A program made the position numbers and the translations under genes. A model generated the notes under the pieces. It worked only from the letters and a program-made list of their open reading frames with translations. It made no database searches and was not told the origin of the DNA. Below are positions 44,321 through 48,456 of a stretch of DNA of 64,000 bases, piece after piece. Source of the DNA: Antarctobacter albus (GTDB taxonomy: Bacteria > Pseudomonadota > Alphaproteobacteria > Rhodobacterales > Rhodobacteraceae); contig NZ_FMZI01000005.1 in NCBI RefSeq assembly GCF_900101505.1, positions 186,001 through 250,000 on the forward strand. Reading direction: 5' to 3'. Position 1 is the stretch's first letter, and each line of letters begins with the position of its first letter.

Positions 44321-44403
44321 CAGTCCTGCCCCCTGCCCCCGTGCATTCCGGCGCAAGGCCGCGTATCACGCGACAAACTCACGCGCAAACAGGAGCGACA
44401 CCC

Positions 44404-45009
44404 TTGTTCTATCGTCCCGAGGACGGCCACGGCCTGCCGCACAACCCGTTCAACGCCATCGTGACACCCCGCCCCATCGGCTGGATTTCGACCCGGGGGG
44501 CCGACGGGCACGACAATCTGGCCCCCTATTCCTTTTTCAACGCGGTCGCCTATGTCCCGCCGCAGGTCATGTTCGCCTCGACCTCGGCCAAGGAGGACCG
44601 CGGCGACACCAAGGACAGCGTCGCCCAGATCCGCGACACCGGCGTCTTCTGCGTCAACATCGTGGAATACGAGATGCGCGACGCGATGAACGCCACCTCC
44701 GCCTTCTTCGGCAAGGAGGTCGACGAATTCGCCGAGGCGGGCCTCGAGAAAGCGGAATGCGAGACCATCGCCTGTGCGCGCGTGGCCGCGGCCCCCGCCA
44801 ACCTGGAATGCAAGCTGACGCAGATCGTGCAACTGCCCGGCAAGTCGAATTTCGCCGTCTTCGGAGAGGTGACAGGCGTGCATATCCGCGACAATTGCCT
44901 GGTCGACGGCATCTTCGACGTGCTGACCTTCAACCCGCTCAGCCGCATGGGCTATCGCGACTACACCGTCGTGCGCGAGAAATTTCCGCTGAAGCGCCCG
45001 GGAGAGTGA
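44404..45009 (+). CDS. Flavin reductase family protein (FMN-binding)
   Basis: 201 aa starting at TTG 44404, with AGGAG upstream, giving the family-typical MFYRPEDGHGLPHNPFNAIV. FMN-binding split-barrel motifs: TPRPIGWISTRG, LAPYSFFNAVAYVPPQVMF and TGVFCVNIV. It may reduce flavin or bind FMN as a flavoprotein; the partner is unknown. Confidence 0.88.
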   Translation: MFYRPEDGHGLPHNPFNAIVTPRPIGWISTRGADGHDNLAPYSFFNAVAYVPPQVMFASTSAKEDRGDTKDSVAQIRDTGVFCVNIVEYEMRDAMNATSAFFGKEVDEFAEAGLEKAECETIACARVAAAPANLECKLTQIVQLPGKSNFAVFGEVTGVHIRDNCLVDGIFDVLTFNPLSRMGYRDYTVVREKFPLKRPGE

Positions 45010-45176: not shown

Positions 45177-45225
45177 CCAAAATTAGGCAACGCATCTAAT
45201 GTCGGGTCTCGGGAGTGGAGGCATG

Positions 45226-45732
45226 ATGAACATTTTAGCGAGGTTTTGGGATTTGCTACGTGTCGCATTCTTAGAAGGCATGTTGCATCGGACTGAAGAT
45301 GGTCAAAGGTTGGGCGTCTTCTCGAGAAGAGGCTCGGGGGCCAACCTAATGTTTGTGGGAATAACCGGTTGCATGGTTGGGTTGGTTTGGATCGTTCAAA
45401 GAGCACATTTTGAGTTAGACGCGCTCACTGCAACTTCAGAAGTTTTGGAGGTGCAGGAGGGCGAAACATCGGATGGTGATGCAGTCTATCAACTGACGCT
45501 TAAATGGACACACGAAAATGGAACCACCCACGTCACGACCCCTCGCGTCAGGGCCAGCTACTACAATGTGCCGGTCGGAACTGAGTTGGATATCAAGTAC
45601 GACCCCGATGACCCCAAGGACGTTCGTGTCGAAACTCAAGATGGGCCTTGGTATTTCCCTCGGCGGATCCTGATCGGAAGCTTGATGAGTTTTGTTATGG
45701 GACGATTGTTGAGGGGGAATCCAGAAGCTTGA
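45226..45732 (+). CDS. DUF3592 domain membrane protein, lower GC
   Basis: 168 aa from ATG 45226 (5 nt from GGAG); ATG 45223 and 45199 are alternatives. Two membrane segments (LMFVGITGCMVGLVWIV near 42-58 and ILIGSLMSFVMGRLL near the C-terminus) flank a DUF3592-like beta domain (VYQLTLKWTHENGTTHVTTP, then VPVGTELDIKYDPDDPKDVR). Base composition and codons (TTA, TTG, AGA) differ from the neighbours, suggesting horizontal acquisition. Function unknown. Confidence 0.75.
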   Translation: MNILARFWDLLRVAFLEGMLHRTEDGQRLGVFSRRGSGANLMFVGITGCMVGLVWIVQRAHFELDALTATSEVLEVQEGETSDGDAVYQLTLKWTHENGTTHVTTPRVRASYYNVPVGTELDIKYDPDDPKDVRVETQDGPWYFPRRILIGSLMSFVMGRLLRGNPEA

Positions 45733-46034
45733 CCAACAGTGTTTTCGGCGGATGCAGACCTTCATATCTACGATGTCAACGGCAGCAAGGTCCCGCAAAC
45801 CCGTCACTCATACAACCACCCCCGAAGGTCCGCTTCAACGGGCCGGCTCCTGACCTGCAATCTCCGCTTCGGACTGCAACCCTCCACCCCGCATGCCCTC
45901 CATGCGGATCCGCATGGCCCCGCACTCTCGCATTCCGGTGCCGGGCGTGCTACCACTGCCCTGCAACGATGGAGGCAGTGATGGACCAGACCCTTTGAAC
46001 CCCTGACATTTTCCCAGAGTTCAAAGGAGGCATC
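45733..46034 (+). promoter_or_regulatory. Leader region of the acyltransferase gene, with leader ORF and SD hairpin
   Basis: No full gene in these 300 bases. At 45969-45998 lies a tiny ORF MEAVMDQTL; its internal ATG at 45981 (MDQTL) has GGAGG at 45971-45975. Arms CCTTTGAAC (45992-46000) and GTTCAAAGG (46019-46027) are perfect and enclose an 18-base loop. The 3' arm contains the acyltransferase Shine-Dalgarno AGGAGG (46025-46030). The leader stop TGA (45996-45998) sits in the 5' arm. This layout matches translational attenuation. Confidence 0.6.
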
Positions 46035-46709
46035 ATGCCTGATCCATCCAAGCCGGGTCCTTCCCTGCCCGCGCCCGACGCGGCTTTTCCCATCATCCTG
46101 CCCGACGGCACCCCGCATCGCGGCACGGTTTTCCTGAAAAACGTGATCGACCATCCGCGCTTCGAGGTCGGCGACTACACCTACGCCTCGGACTTCGACC
46201 CGCCTGAGGACTGGGCGGCGCGGCTGGCCCCCTACCTGTTCCCCTTCAGCCAGGAAAAGCTGCGCATCGGCAAATACTGCCAGATCGCCCACGGGGTCCG
46301 GTTCATCGGCAGTTCGGCCAACCACGCGACGGACGGGCTGACCACCTTTCCCTTTGCGGTCTTCGACCCGTCGACCATGCTGGGTTACCAGCCCGACAGC
46401 CGCGACACGGTGATCGGCCATGACGTCTGGCTGGGCTATGGCGCCCTGGTCCTGCCCGGCGCGCGGATCGGCAATGGCGTCATCGTCGGCGCAGGCGCCG
46501 TGGTGCGCGGCACGGTGCCGGATTACGCTGTCGTCACCGGCAACCCGGCGCAGGTGGTCAAGATGCGGTTTGCCCCGCAAGAGATCGAGACGCTCAACGC
46601 GCTGGCCTGGTGGGACTGGCCCCCCGAGCTTGTCGCCCGGGCCCGTCCGGCGCTGGAGGCTGGCGACGTTGCCGCGCTGCAGCAAATCGCACCGGCAGAT
46701 CCCGGCTGA
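46035..46709 (+). CDS. Xenobiotic acyltransferase, hexapeptide-repeat (CatB/Vat-like)
   Basis: 224 aa left-handed beta-helix acetyltransferase. Hexapeptide turns (DTVIGHDVWLGYGALVLPGA, then RIGNGVIVGAGAVV) and the catalytic histidine in SSANHATDG resemble the Vat/CatB xenobiotic acetyltransferases. The C-terminal ALAWWDWP matches the LxxWWdW motif of that group. Substrate not known; chloramphenicol or streptogramin acetylation is only a family possibility. SD AGGAGG is masked by a hairpin. Confidence 0.88.
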   Translation: MPDPSKPGPSLPAPDAAFPIILPDGTPHRGTVFLKNVIDHPRFEVGDYTYASDFDPPEDWAARLAPYLFPFSQEKLRIGKYCQIAHGVRFIGSSANHATDGLTTFPFAVFDPSTMLGYQPDSRDTVIGHDVWLGYGALVLPGARIGNGVIVGAGAVVRGTVPDYAVVTGNPAQVVKMRFAPQEIETLNALAWWDWPPELVARARPALEAGDVAALQQIAPADPG

Positions 46710-46714
46710 GCGCG

Positions 46715-46743
46715 AAAAAGGGCGCCCTTTCACGGGCGCCCTT
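46715..46743 (-). terminator. Hairpin between the convergent acyltransferase and sulP genes
   Basis: Arms AAGGGCGCCC (46718-46727) and GGGCGCCCTT (46734-46743); the T-run is on the minus strand (46715-46719). It probably terminates the leftward sulP gene and may act on both strands. Confidence 0.75.
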
Positions 46744-46768
46744 AAAGAAACCTTGCCGGTTTGTACAA

Positions 46769-46810
46769 AATGCTGAAAACGGCGTACGTTTTGTACAAAA
46801 CGTACAAAAC
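46769..46810. repeat. TTTTGTACAAAA palindrome repeats
   Basis: TTTGTACAAAA occurs at 46770-46780 and again inside a perfect 22-bp palindrome at 46784-46805 centred on TTTTGTACAAAA, followed by another GTACAAAAC at 46802-46810. AT-rich against a GC-rich background. Possible protein binding site or mobile repeat; identity unknown. Confidence 0.7.
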
Positions 46811-46821
46811 GCCGCCCGCCC

Positions 46822-48456
46822 TCAGTGCCCGCCCAGGATGCCCGTGCGAACGTTGTAATCGACCGCCAGTTCGTAATCCGGGTCGTCGTCACTATCGACC
46901 ATCAGGTGGCCCGCCTTGGTCAACAGCTTGTGGCAATCCCGGCTCAGGTGACGCAGCTTGATCTGCTTTCCGGCGTCCTGGTACTTGCCCGCGACGGCCT
47001 CGATCGCCTGCAGGGCCGACTGATCGACCACCCGGCTTTCGTTGAAATCCACGATCACCACGTCCGGGTCGTTCTCGACGTCAAACAGTTCCATGAACCC
47101 GTCGCTGGAGCCAAAGAACAGCGGCCCCTGGATCTCGTAGACCTTGGCACCCAGATCGGTGTGGGACTCGCGCGTCTTTGCATGGATGCGCCGGGCGTTG
47201 TTCCAGGCATAGGCCAGAGCCGAGACGATGACACCGACGACAACCGCGACGGCCAGGTCTTCCATCACCGTGACGACCGTCACCAGCAGGATGACAAAGG
47301 CATCCATCGCCGGAACCTTTGTCAGGATTTTCAACGAGTTCCAGGCAAATGTCCCGATCACCACCATGAACATCACACCCACCAGCGCGGCCAGCGGGAT
47401 CAGTTCGATCAGCGGCGCGGCAAAGAGGATGAAGGTCAGCAGGAACAGCGCGGCCGCGATGCCCGCGATCCGCGTGCGCGCGCCGGATTTGACGTTGATC
47501 ATCGACTGGCCGATCATCGCACAGCCGCCCATGCCGCCGAAAAAGCCGGTCAGGATGTTCGAGGCCCCCTGCGCGATACATTCCTGGCTGGCGCCGCCGC
47601 GCTTGCCGGTGATTTCTCCCACCAGGTTCAGGGTCAGCAGCGATTCAATCAGCCCGATGGCCGCCAGGATCACGGCATAAGGCAGAATGATTTCAAGCGT
47701 TTCCAGGTTCAGAGGCACCGCCGGGATGTGGAAGGGCGGCAAGCCCCCCTGGATCGAGGCCAGGTCGCCCACGCGCGGCACGTCCAGCCCGAAGCCGATC
47801 ACCAGCGCGGCCACGACAAAGATCCCGGCCAGCGGCGCGGGCACAACCTTGCTGACCTTCGGCATGACCCAGATGATCGCCATCGTCAGCGCCGTCAGTC
47901 CCAGCATCAGGTACAGCGGCATCCCCGACAGCCATTCGCCCCCGCCCATGCCGTGCCCGGTATTTTCCATTGTTCCCGGGACCTTGAACTGACCCAGCTG
48001 GGCCAGAAAGATCACGATGGCCAGCCCGTTCACAAAGCCCAGCATGACCGGATGCGGCACCAGGCGGATGAACTTGCCCCATTGCAGCGCCCCGGCGATC
48101 ACCTGCAGAATGCCCATCAGGACGACGGTCGCGAACAGGTATTCGACCCCATGCTGCGCCACCAGCGCCACCATGACCACCGCCAGCGCCCCCGTCGCGC
48201 CAGAGATCATGCCAGGCCGCCCGCCGATCAGCGCCGTCACCAGCCCCACGAGGAAGGCCGCGTAAAGCCCCACCAGCGGGTGCACCCCGGCGACAAAGGC
48301 AAAGGCCACCGCCTCGGGCACCAGCGCCAGCGCCACGGTCAGACCCGCCAAAAGCTCGATCCGCCACCGGCTGGGCGTCAGTTTCTCGTCCGGCATCAGG
48401 GACAGGTCGGGCAATTCCACACGGTTGGCGAAACGCGCCAAGAGGGCTTTTTTCAT
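46822..48456 (-). CDS. SulP family anion transporter with STAS domain
   Basis: 544 aa from ATG 48456 with AAAGGA upstream. An N-terminal membrane domain of about 10-12 spans (residues about 30-400) contains the family motif LVPEAVAFAFVAGVHPLVGLYAA. A C-terminal STAS domain follows (VYEIQGPLFFGSSDGFMELF, then VDFNESRVVDQSALQAIE). Likely sulfate or bicarbonate import; the anion is not determined by sequence. Confidence 0.94.
   Translation of the reverse strand: MKKALLARFANRVELPDLSLMPDEKLTPSRWRIELLAGLTVALALVPEAVAFAFVAGVHPLVGLYAAFLVGLVTALIGGRPGMISGATGALAVVMVALVAQHGVEYLFATVVLMGILQVIAGALQWGKFIRLVPHPVMLGFVNGLAIVIFLAQLGQFKVPGTMENTGHGMGGGEWLSGMPLYLMLGLTALTMAIIWVMPKVSKVVPAPLAGIFVVAALVIGFGLDVPRVGDLASIQGGLPPFHIPAVPLNLETLEIILPYAVILAAIGLIESLLTLNLVGEITGKRGGASQECIAQGASNILTGFFGGMGGCAMIGQSMINVKSGARTRIAGIAAALFLLTFILFAAPLIELIPLAALVGVMFMVVIGTFAWNSLKILTKVPAMDAFVILLVTVVTVMEDLAVAVVVGVIVSALAYAWNNARRIHAKTRESHTDLGAKVYEIQGPLFFGSSDGFMELFDVENDPDVVIVDFNESRVVDQSALQAIEAVAGKYQDAGKQIKLRHLSRDCHKLLTKAGHLMVDSDDDPDYELAVDYNVRTGILGGH

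Follow-up and report, generated by a model that had tools for sequence, protein, structure and literature searches.

A putative translational attenuator with a short open reading frame upstream of Vat/CatB-type acyltransferase genes in Rhodobacteraceae

Described short leaders and the acyltransferase locus

Leaders of cat genes encode a specific peptide and stall ribosomes at one fixed codon of it; the product of cat86 has the classical CAT fold. Other leaders tolerate a variety of peptides. In the Gram-positive systems vmlR, vga(A) and cplR, which sense pleuromutilins, lincosamides and streptogramin A through a minimal upstream open reading frame (uORF), these drugs probably act by stalling ribosomes on start codons (excerpt of the discussion of PMC12121999). 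The uORF of B. subtilis vmlR has 3 codons, MIN; according to an excerpt of PMC9226507, the natural variants MDN and MDK are at least as good for the lincomycin response, MRK is less efficient, and the 30S toeprint on the start codon lies 16 nt after its A. The leader described here, located upstream of a xenobiotic acyltransferase (XAT) gene, resembles these systems in its minimal, peptide-tolerant uORF. It differs from vmlR, which combines transcription attenuation with a separate hairpin over the Shine-Dalgarno (SD) sequence and encodes an ABC-F product (same excerpt), in having one hairpin, no terminator found (the sole terminator-like site in 45600-46900 lies past the gene), an acetyltransferase product and an alphaproteobacterial host; any induction of it is putative. 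As in cat86 and other cat genes, a single hairpin covers the SD of an acetyltransferase gene and the leader extends into the 5' arm, but the leader peptide varies between XAT loci and the enzyme belongs to the XAT type.

Control by uORFs is already known in alphaproteobacteria, in one case from Rhodobacter, which belongs to the same family as the organism studied here. In R. capsulatus cutF-cutO, which responds to copper, delayed export of the nascent protein of the upstream gene allows a stem-loop shielding the downstream ribosome-binding site to unfold (excerpt of PMC9973294); CutF differs from a 5-codon leader in that it senses copper, is exported and itself carries a stalling-like motif. 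The S. meliloti duf1127 uORF, like the XAT leader an alphaproteobacterial uORF, responds to translation inhibitors acting at initiation or early codons, including tetracycline, but acts on a DUF1127 gene by presumed Rho-dependent transcription attenuation (excerpt of PMC12218461). Antibiotic-responsive leaders are also known in E. coli, where the toiL uORF of topAI pairs with the downstream ribosome-binding site and where tetracycline and retapamulin stall ribosomes at its start codon (excerpt of PMC12121999). The XAT leader shares with toiL this pairing in a Gram-negative organism; toiL differs by its toxin-antitoxin target, the involvement of Rho and several stall sites, whereas the XAT leader has 3-6 codons and precedes an enzyme of a drug-modifying type. 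The initial annotation of our locus knew of no alphaproteobacterial example of such control: cutF-cutO and duf1127 are related cases, but neither, in the excerpts of the two papers, acts on a drug-modifying enzyme. No description of a XAT leader-hairpin element was found in the literature among the matches listed, with subscription journals mostly outside the search, and the novelty appears to lie in a leader, deeply conserved and independent of its peptide, before a gene for a Vat/CatB-type enzyme in the Rhodobacteraceae.

The window, that is the whole stretch of 64,000 nt analysed here, comes from a genome of 5.26 Mb in 36 contigs (Table 1). The initial annotation had proposed a 5- or 9-codon leader with its own GGAGG, whose stop codon falls inside the 5' arm of a perfect 9-bp inverted repeat, and both points were confirmed. 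The arms, CCTTTGAAC and GTTCAAAGG, are complementary at 9 of 9 positions and separated by an 18-nt loop. That the 3' arm contains the XAT SD is true of the AAGG of AAGGAGG; the final AGG lies outside the perfect arm. The downstream gene was also rightly called Vat/CatB-like. Its product is a hexapeptide-repeat acetyltransferase (Pfam PF00132) whose best solved relative is 1xat (E = 5.8e-39, residues 26-217), followed by CatB- and Vat-type structures. Its NH...TFPF region aligns to the GH...TFPF region of 1xat, and the histidine of this region presumably has an active-site role. The protein can be assigned to the xenobiotic acyltransferase (Vat/CatB) type, though its scores stay below the cut-offs of the curated NCBIfam models of named Vat and CatB resistance enzymes (160.6 of 400 bits for VatF, 156.6 of 300 for Vat_ABCDEFH and 126.4 of 350 for CatB), so that "drug-modifying" is here deduced from the family. 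The closest named relatives of the genome are Mameliella, with 95% identity for this protein.

Table 1. Positions of the leader, the hairpin and neighbouring features in the window
Feature	Coordinates	Strand	Comment
Flavin reductase-like gene	44341-45009	+	Flavin_Reduct match, 3.3e-20
Possible -10 element GCTACC	45949-45954	+	picked by eye; weak; transcript would start just 5' of the leader
Upstream in-frame ATG	45969-45971	+	opens alternative 9-codon leader MEAVMDQTL; probably non-functional start
Leader SD GGAGG	45971-45975	+	read from sequence; kept in relatives
Leader ORF MDQTL*	45981-45998	+	ATG 45981-45983, 5 codons, TGA 45996-45998
Hairpin 5' arm CCTTTGAAC	45992-46000	+	overlaps final leader codons and stop; covariation
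Hairpin 3' arm GTTCAAAGG	46019-46027	+	overlaps first 4 bases of XAT SD
XAT SD AAGGAGG	46024-46030	+	partly buried in predicted hairpin
XAT gene (xenobiotic acyltransferase, Vat/CatB-like, 224 aa)	46035-46709	+	ATG at 46035

A promoter scan found no sigma-70 consensus. The best TATAAT-like hexamer at this locus, TACCAC, matches at 3 of 6 positions. In relatives, the best such hexamer often lies 28-34 nt 5' of the leader AUG (per-locus scan, no null). A perfect 18-bp palindrome, CCATGCGGATCCGCATGG, at 45900-45917 (64-81 nt 5' of the leader ATG) also occurs in the close relatives L008, L009 and L027, and is a possible operator. A DUF3592 ORF (45199-45732) with a GC content of 51%, against 66% for the window, separates the flavin reductase gene from XAT.

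Conservation and covariation of the leader and the hairpin

A search with the XAT protein (E≤1e-50) covered 394 genomes from the family to which the window belongs and gave 113 matches in 111 genomes. The upstream DNA of all matches was taken, and 111 loci were counted once two without a usable start (L230 and L243) had been set aside. A leader was scored when it had 3-8 codons, an SD and a stop 18-50 nt 5' of the gene. By these criteria, 58 of the 111 loci carry a leader, as compared to 88 of 5550 (1.6%) dinucleotide shuffles of the 110 bases upstream of each gene. An arm duplex of -8 kcal/mol or lower accompanies the leader in 51 of the 111 loci, all among the 58, and in 32 of the 5550 shuffles. 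Within the window, one of 62 coding-like ORFs chosen by codon-position GC has a leader, the XAT gene itself, and none was found before 46 ORFs chosen by length alone, a set that missed the XAT leader and may include spurious ORFs.

Among the 58 leader loci, the SD bases are G at -10 in 56, G at -9 in 58, A at -8 in 56, G at -7 in 57 and G at -6 in 51, the SD itself being among the criteria by which these loci were picked. A leader of 5 codons is more probable than one of 9, because the outer ATG is patchy (ATG at -12 in 42 of 58, its T at -11 in 44), whereas all 58 loci have the SD and the inner ATG or GTG, both of which served as selection criteria. The 9-codon leader starting at 45969 was thus disfavoured, the T of that ATG being missing in 14 relatives. 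The sequence CGATGGAGG / CGAGGGAGG just 5' of the leader (45967-45975 in the window, and relatives) is conserved beyond the needs of an SD, with A at -12 in 53 of the 58 loci followed by T (44) or G (12).

The remaining 53 loci lack a leader by the automatic criteria, and 2 of them have one by eye. Leaders seen by eye (L226, L230 and L239) stand outside the 58, and the tree described below includes L226 and L239, hence 60. In 24 of the 53 leaderless loci, XAT starts at the end of a long upstream ORF or at most 30 nt from it; the other 29 have neither a leader nor an adjoining upstream ORF end. As about half of the homologues are leaderless, such a switch would be dispensable in many lineages. 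XAT occurs in two alternative neighbourhoods, next to a flavin reductase gene (in the retrieved upstream stretch of 37 of 113 loci) or next to tuf, encoding EF-Tu (at most 1 kb 5' of XAT in 36 of 113 loci, L132-L244), with or without a leader. The 58 leader loci have flavin reductase upstream in 16 cases, its match ending 89-396 nt 5' of XAT, tuf in 23, and another gene or one too far to be seen in 19. At 18 leaderless loci with flavin reductase upstream, including L142, L143, L148 and L151-L154, a long ORF ends at or at most 30 nt before the XAT start, 7 times as TGATG; operon coupling would there apparently replace the attenuator.

In a tree of the 111 proteins, the leader is clustered, yet scattered tree-wide, with 25 changes as compared to 37.1 with shuffled labels (0 of 500). 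We read this pattern as pointing to a single ancient element that would have been lost many times. Because only 13 of the 108 inner branches are well supported, the leader may instead have been gained repeatedly in separate lineages. Outside the family, a leader was found in one case, Parvularcula mediterranea (L056, MNKSAI*). By eye, 39 other loci outside the family had no leader, about 12 of which have little or no sequence 5' of the start, and none was seen at 6 Rhizobiales plasmid homologues (for example in A. fabrum C58), 2 of them unannotated with a guessed start.

Folding predictions place the inverted repeat as the main stem (z = -2.65, with equal stability in 2 of 200 shuffles). Perfect 9-nt inverted repeats with a loop of 3-25 nt number 60 in the window, and the XAT repeat is the only one with a 3' arm that runs into an SD-like motif ahead of a start codon. 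The XAT SD has a predicted mean pairing probability of 0.73 at the window locus, and among the 58 leader loci the predicted value reaches 0.5 or more in 45. Together, these predictions support a hairpin that would hide the SD of the downstream gene.

Covariation was examined in a first set of 32 leader-bearing loci among relatives of at least 53% identity (47 loci and re-oriented ones), with leaderless loci omitted by design and duplicate retrievals counted once; removal of the near-duplicate L027 left 31 loci. Of these, 23 formed the core alignment A2, and the 8 divergent loci, omitted from the covariation count and from the model R1 described below, were included in the arm-swap test. Pairs make up 91.8% of the cells of A2, which 0 of 500 shuffles reach, whereas slid registers give at most 59.4%. 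Both sides have changed in 4 of 9 pairs (matched by 0 of 500 shuffles, shared ancestry uncorrected); further pair types are matched by 21 of 500 shuffles. As an example, CCTTTGA/TCAAAGG has become CCTGTAA with TACAGG in L046, so that 2 pairs are altered on both sides while Leu and stop are retained. Arms also pair better with their own partner than with swapped ones, with means of -13.8 and -10.0 kcal/mol for the 31 loci (0 of 20000 permutations, shared ancestry uncorrected) and of -12.9 and -9.0 kcal/mol for the 58 loci (0 of 5000 permutations, likewise uncorrected); for the 8 divergent loci alone, 71 of 20000 permutations were as good. The own 3' arm is the top partner in merely 10 of 58 loci (median rank 4.5), because similar arms are common to many loci. 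The geometry of translational attenuation suggested in the initial annotation is thus supported by conservation and covariation; of its proposal to align upstream regions for co-varying arms and a conserved leader peptide, the first expectation was borne out and the second was not.

The hairpin loop contains a CCTGA box (46002-46006 in the window) that is conserved in core relatives and mostly unpaired, its TGA sitting 8 nt past the leader TGA in 20 of 23 core loci. A second ORF ending at this conserved loop TGA was considered and dropped, as it vanishes in relatives. The same fate befell a programmed frameshift at CTT-TGA, for which prfB is the precedent, since L046 and L118 have CTG-TAA. A search of Rfam with 45700-46200 (E≤1) returned a single match, to a lncRNA family, with 21.4 of 50 bits and on the opposite strand, and a known RNA family was rejected for the element.

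We then built a covariance model, R1, from the core alignment and ran it over the 394 genomes. It gave 61 matches at E≤0.01, and the top 28 all lie directly 5' of XAT homologues; 10 of these (in L102-L108, L110, L112 and L114) are sequences used to build the model and 18 are independent. Weaker matches are mostly chance or unrelated, since matches 29 and 30 (L130 and L131) are non-XAT and 7 of matches 31-61 are XAT-adjacent by coordinate comparison. In the host genome itself, the element pattern was found once, allowing at most 3 mismatches. On this single match and the top 28 R1 matches, an element placed before other types of gene was rejected.

Leader peptides and the position of the hairpin

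The 58 loci encode 48 distinct leader peptides of 3-6 codons, and the conserved peptide at a stall site that characterizes cat/erm arrest leaders was not found. Codons 2 and 3 are nevertheless fairly conserved (Asp in 38 of 58, Gln or Lys in 40 of 58); peptides of the core clade are MDQ[T/H/N/P/Y]L-like, those of another large group are MDKTAI-like, and several leaders start with MDK. The hairpin position follows the start codon of the leader and not its stop codon in 5- and 6-codon leaders. The centre of the SD partner is at nt 14.3 from the AUG in 5-codon leaders and at 14.1 in 6-codon leaders (p = 0.24), whereas its distance from the stop is -1.7 and -4.9, respectively (p = 6.6e-5). These centres come from 57 of the 58 loci, L157 being without a partner. 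In the seven leaders of 3-4 codons, the centre is at nt 21-22 and the outer helix starts at nt 8-13 in six and at nt 7 in one. Overall, the helix starts no later than nt 16 of the leader at 56 of the 58 loci (median 11, no null), L215 and L183 being the exceptions. Both marks of a start-codon-stall uORF are present: independence from the peptide, and a control structure that a ribosome positioned on the start codon could reach. For L215, the automatic pick is an upstream ATG (7 codons) and the alternative an inner GTG (3 codons); the former was used in the leader count, arm swap, SD-partner centres and helix starts, and the latter in base counts, peptides and opening cost.

Opening of the SD was modelled with a ribosome on the start codon covering the leader to about nt 16, after the reported 30S toeprint. 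The computed cost falls from a median of 6.6 to 4.0 kcal/mol over the 58 loci, a drop matching that for a ribosome placed on the last sense codon (4.3 kcal/mol). The start-codon ribosome lowers it by at least 2 kcal/mol in 39 of 58 loci and by less than 1 in 11, in 8 of which it rises.

Proposed mechanism, alternatives and meaning

A leader, a predicted hairpin, co-evolving arms, a geometry anchored at the start codon and strong model matches exclusively 5' of XAT can be read directly off the sequence. On this basis we lean, with some reserve, towards the 5' end of the XAT mRNA being a translational attenuator that would sense the arrest of ribosomes during initiation or early elongation, the probable cause being antibiotics that inhibit peptidyl transferase. 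Working ribosomes would clear the leader quickly, the hairpin would re-form and little enzyme would be made. An inhibitor would hold a ribosome on the start codon or the first codons of the leader, covered to about nt 16; the parked ribosome would block the lower stem, and the next ribosome could load on the XAT gene. The inducer would probably be an antibiotic of the peptidyl-transferase centre from among those that XAT enzymes can acetylate, namely streptogramin A, a phenicol or a natural analogue, and the enzyme would then remove it. With a stall located at initiation or close to it, the peptide sequence would matter little. We also put forward, more tentatively and as one possibility, a peptide-blind form of stalled-initiation sensing, in which a 3-6-codon ORF would be a mere landing pad and any first-codon inhibitor would induce the acetyltransferase throughout the Rhodobacteraceae and their kin. 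Since codons 2-3 are fairly conserved and the MRK variant of vmlR is weaker, the sensor may be partly peptide-dependent. Against an attenuator stands the residual computed SD cost, with a median that is still 4 kcal/mol when a ribosome occupies the start codon. The 11 loci where this cost drops by less than 1 kcal/mol or rises, the leaderless half of the homologues, the modest rank of the own 3' arms and the XAT scores under the resistance-family cut-offs also weigh against it.

The main rival is constitutive translational coupling, in which leader ribosomes would open the hairpin or re-initiate to give a steady level of enzyme with no sensing. We regard it as rather unlikely. The strong leader SDs and the loose peptide sequence would suit it, as would the 18 leaderless flavin reductase loci, where the long ORF ending at XAT looks like a substitute, and it has been proposed that leader genes generally work by reinitiation (excerpt of PMC4833913). 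In that excerpt, however, the stop-to-start distance peaks at 10-11 nt in Actinobacteria and 15-16 nt in Firmicutes, whereas the XAT leaders have 29-50 nt (median 36, with criteria allowing 18-50). A covarying hairpin that hides the SD would moreover be costly if its purpose were merely higher expression, and analogy with studied systems of similar geometry, which are inducible, would also speak for sensing.

A classical arrest peptide in the style of cat86 or ermC, with a drug or metabolite stalling the ribosome at a defined codon such as Thr4-Leu5, is improbable in our estimation. The recurrent MDQ[T/H/N/P/Y]L-like and MDKTAI-like peptides, with their frequent Asp2 and Gln or Lys3, would be expected from it, but so great a diversity of sequences would not, and a specific arrest peptide was rejected as the general mechanism. 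Stalling of the cat/erm type on one specific nascent chain is accordingly unlikely as a general rule, and the geometry favours a stall on the start codon or the first codons. Ala, Ser or Thr, the context of chloramphenicol stalling according to an excerpt of the PMC12121999 discussion, is absent before the last residue in 29 of the 58 leaders, which makes such context stalling unlikely as the common trigger. The final Leu codon is CTT in 14 of 22 Leu-ending leaders, as compared to 6 of 123 Leu codons in four genes of the window, an excess that fits the demands of pairing with AAGG rather than those of the peptide. Very improbable is an element that would work mainly as a site for an sRNA or protein, or through mRNA stability or termination, with the ORF incidental. 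The well-conserved CCTGA loop box of the core clade and the conservation of the upstream GATGGAGG/GAGGGAGG beyond the needs of an SD would agree with it, but Rfam gave no credible match, the one terminator-like site found in 45600-46900 is past the gene, and relatives retain the start codon, the SD spacing and the short ORF although their loops and peptides differ.

If attenuation by stalled initiation is correct, the range of antibiotic-responsive translational attenuation would grow to include this alphaproteobacterial family and enzymes of the Vat/CatB type, and the XAT leader would be, as far as the literature matches show, the first stalled-initiation switch on a drug-modifying enzyme in alphaproteobacteria. 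It would also be a natural switch set by how far the hairpin lies from the start codon and not by the peptide, with 58 natural variants for testing this rule. Many members of the family are marine. The finding suggests that the habitat of these bacteria contains real ribosome inhibitors to which their chromosomal XAT genes respond and, if true, implies regular exposure to an inhibitor yet to be found, for the discovery of which the leader could serve as a biosensor.
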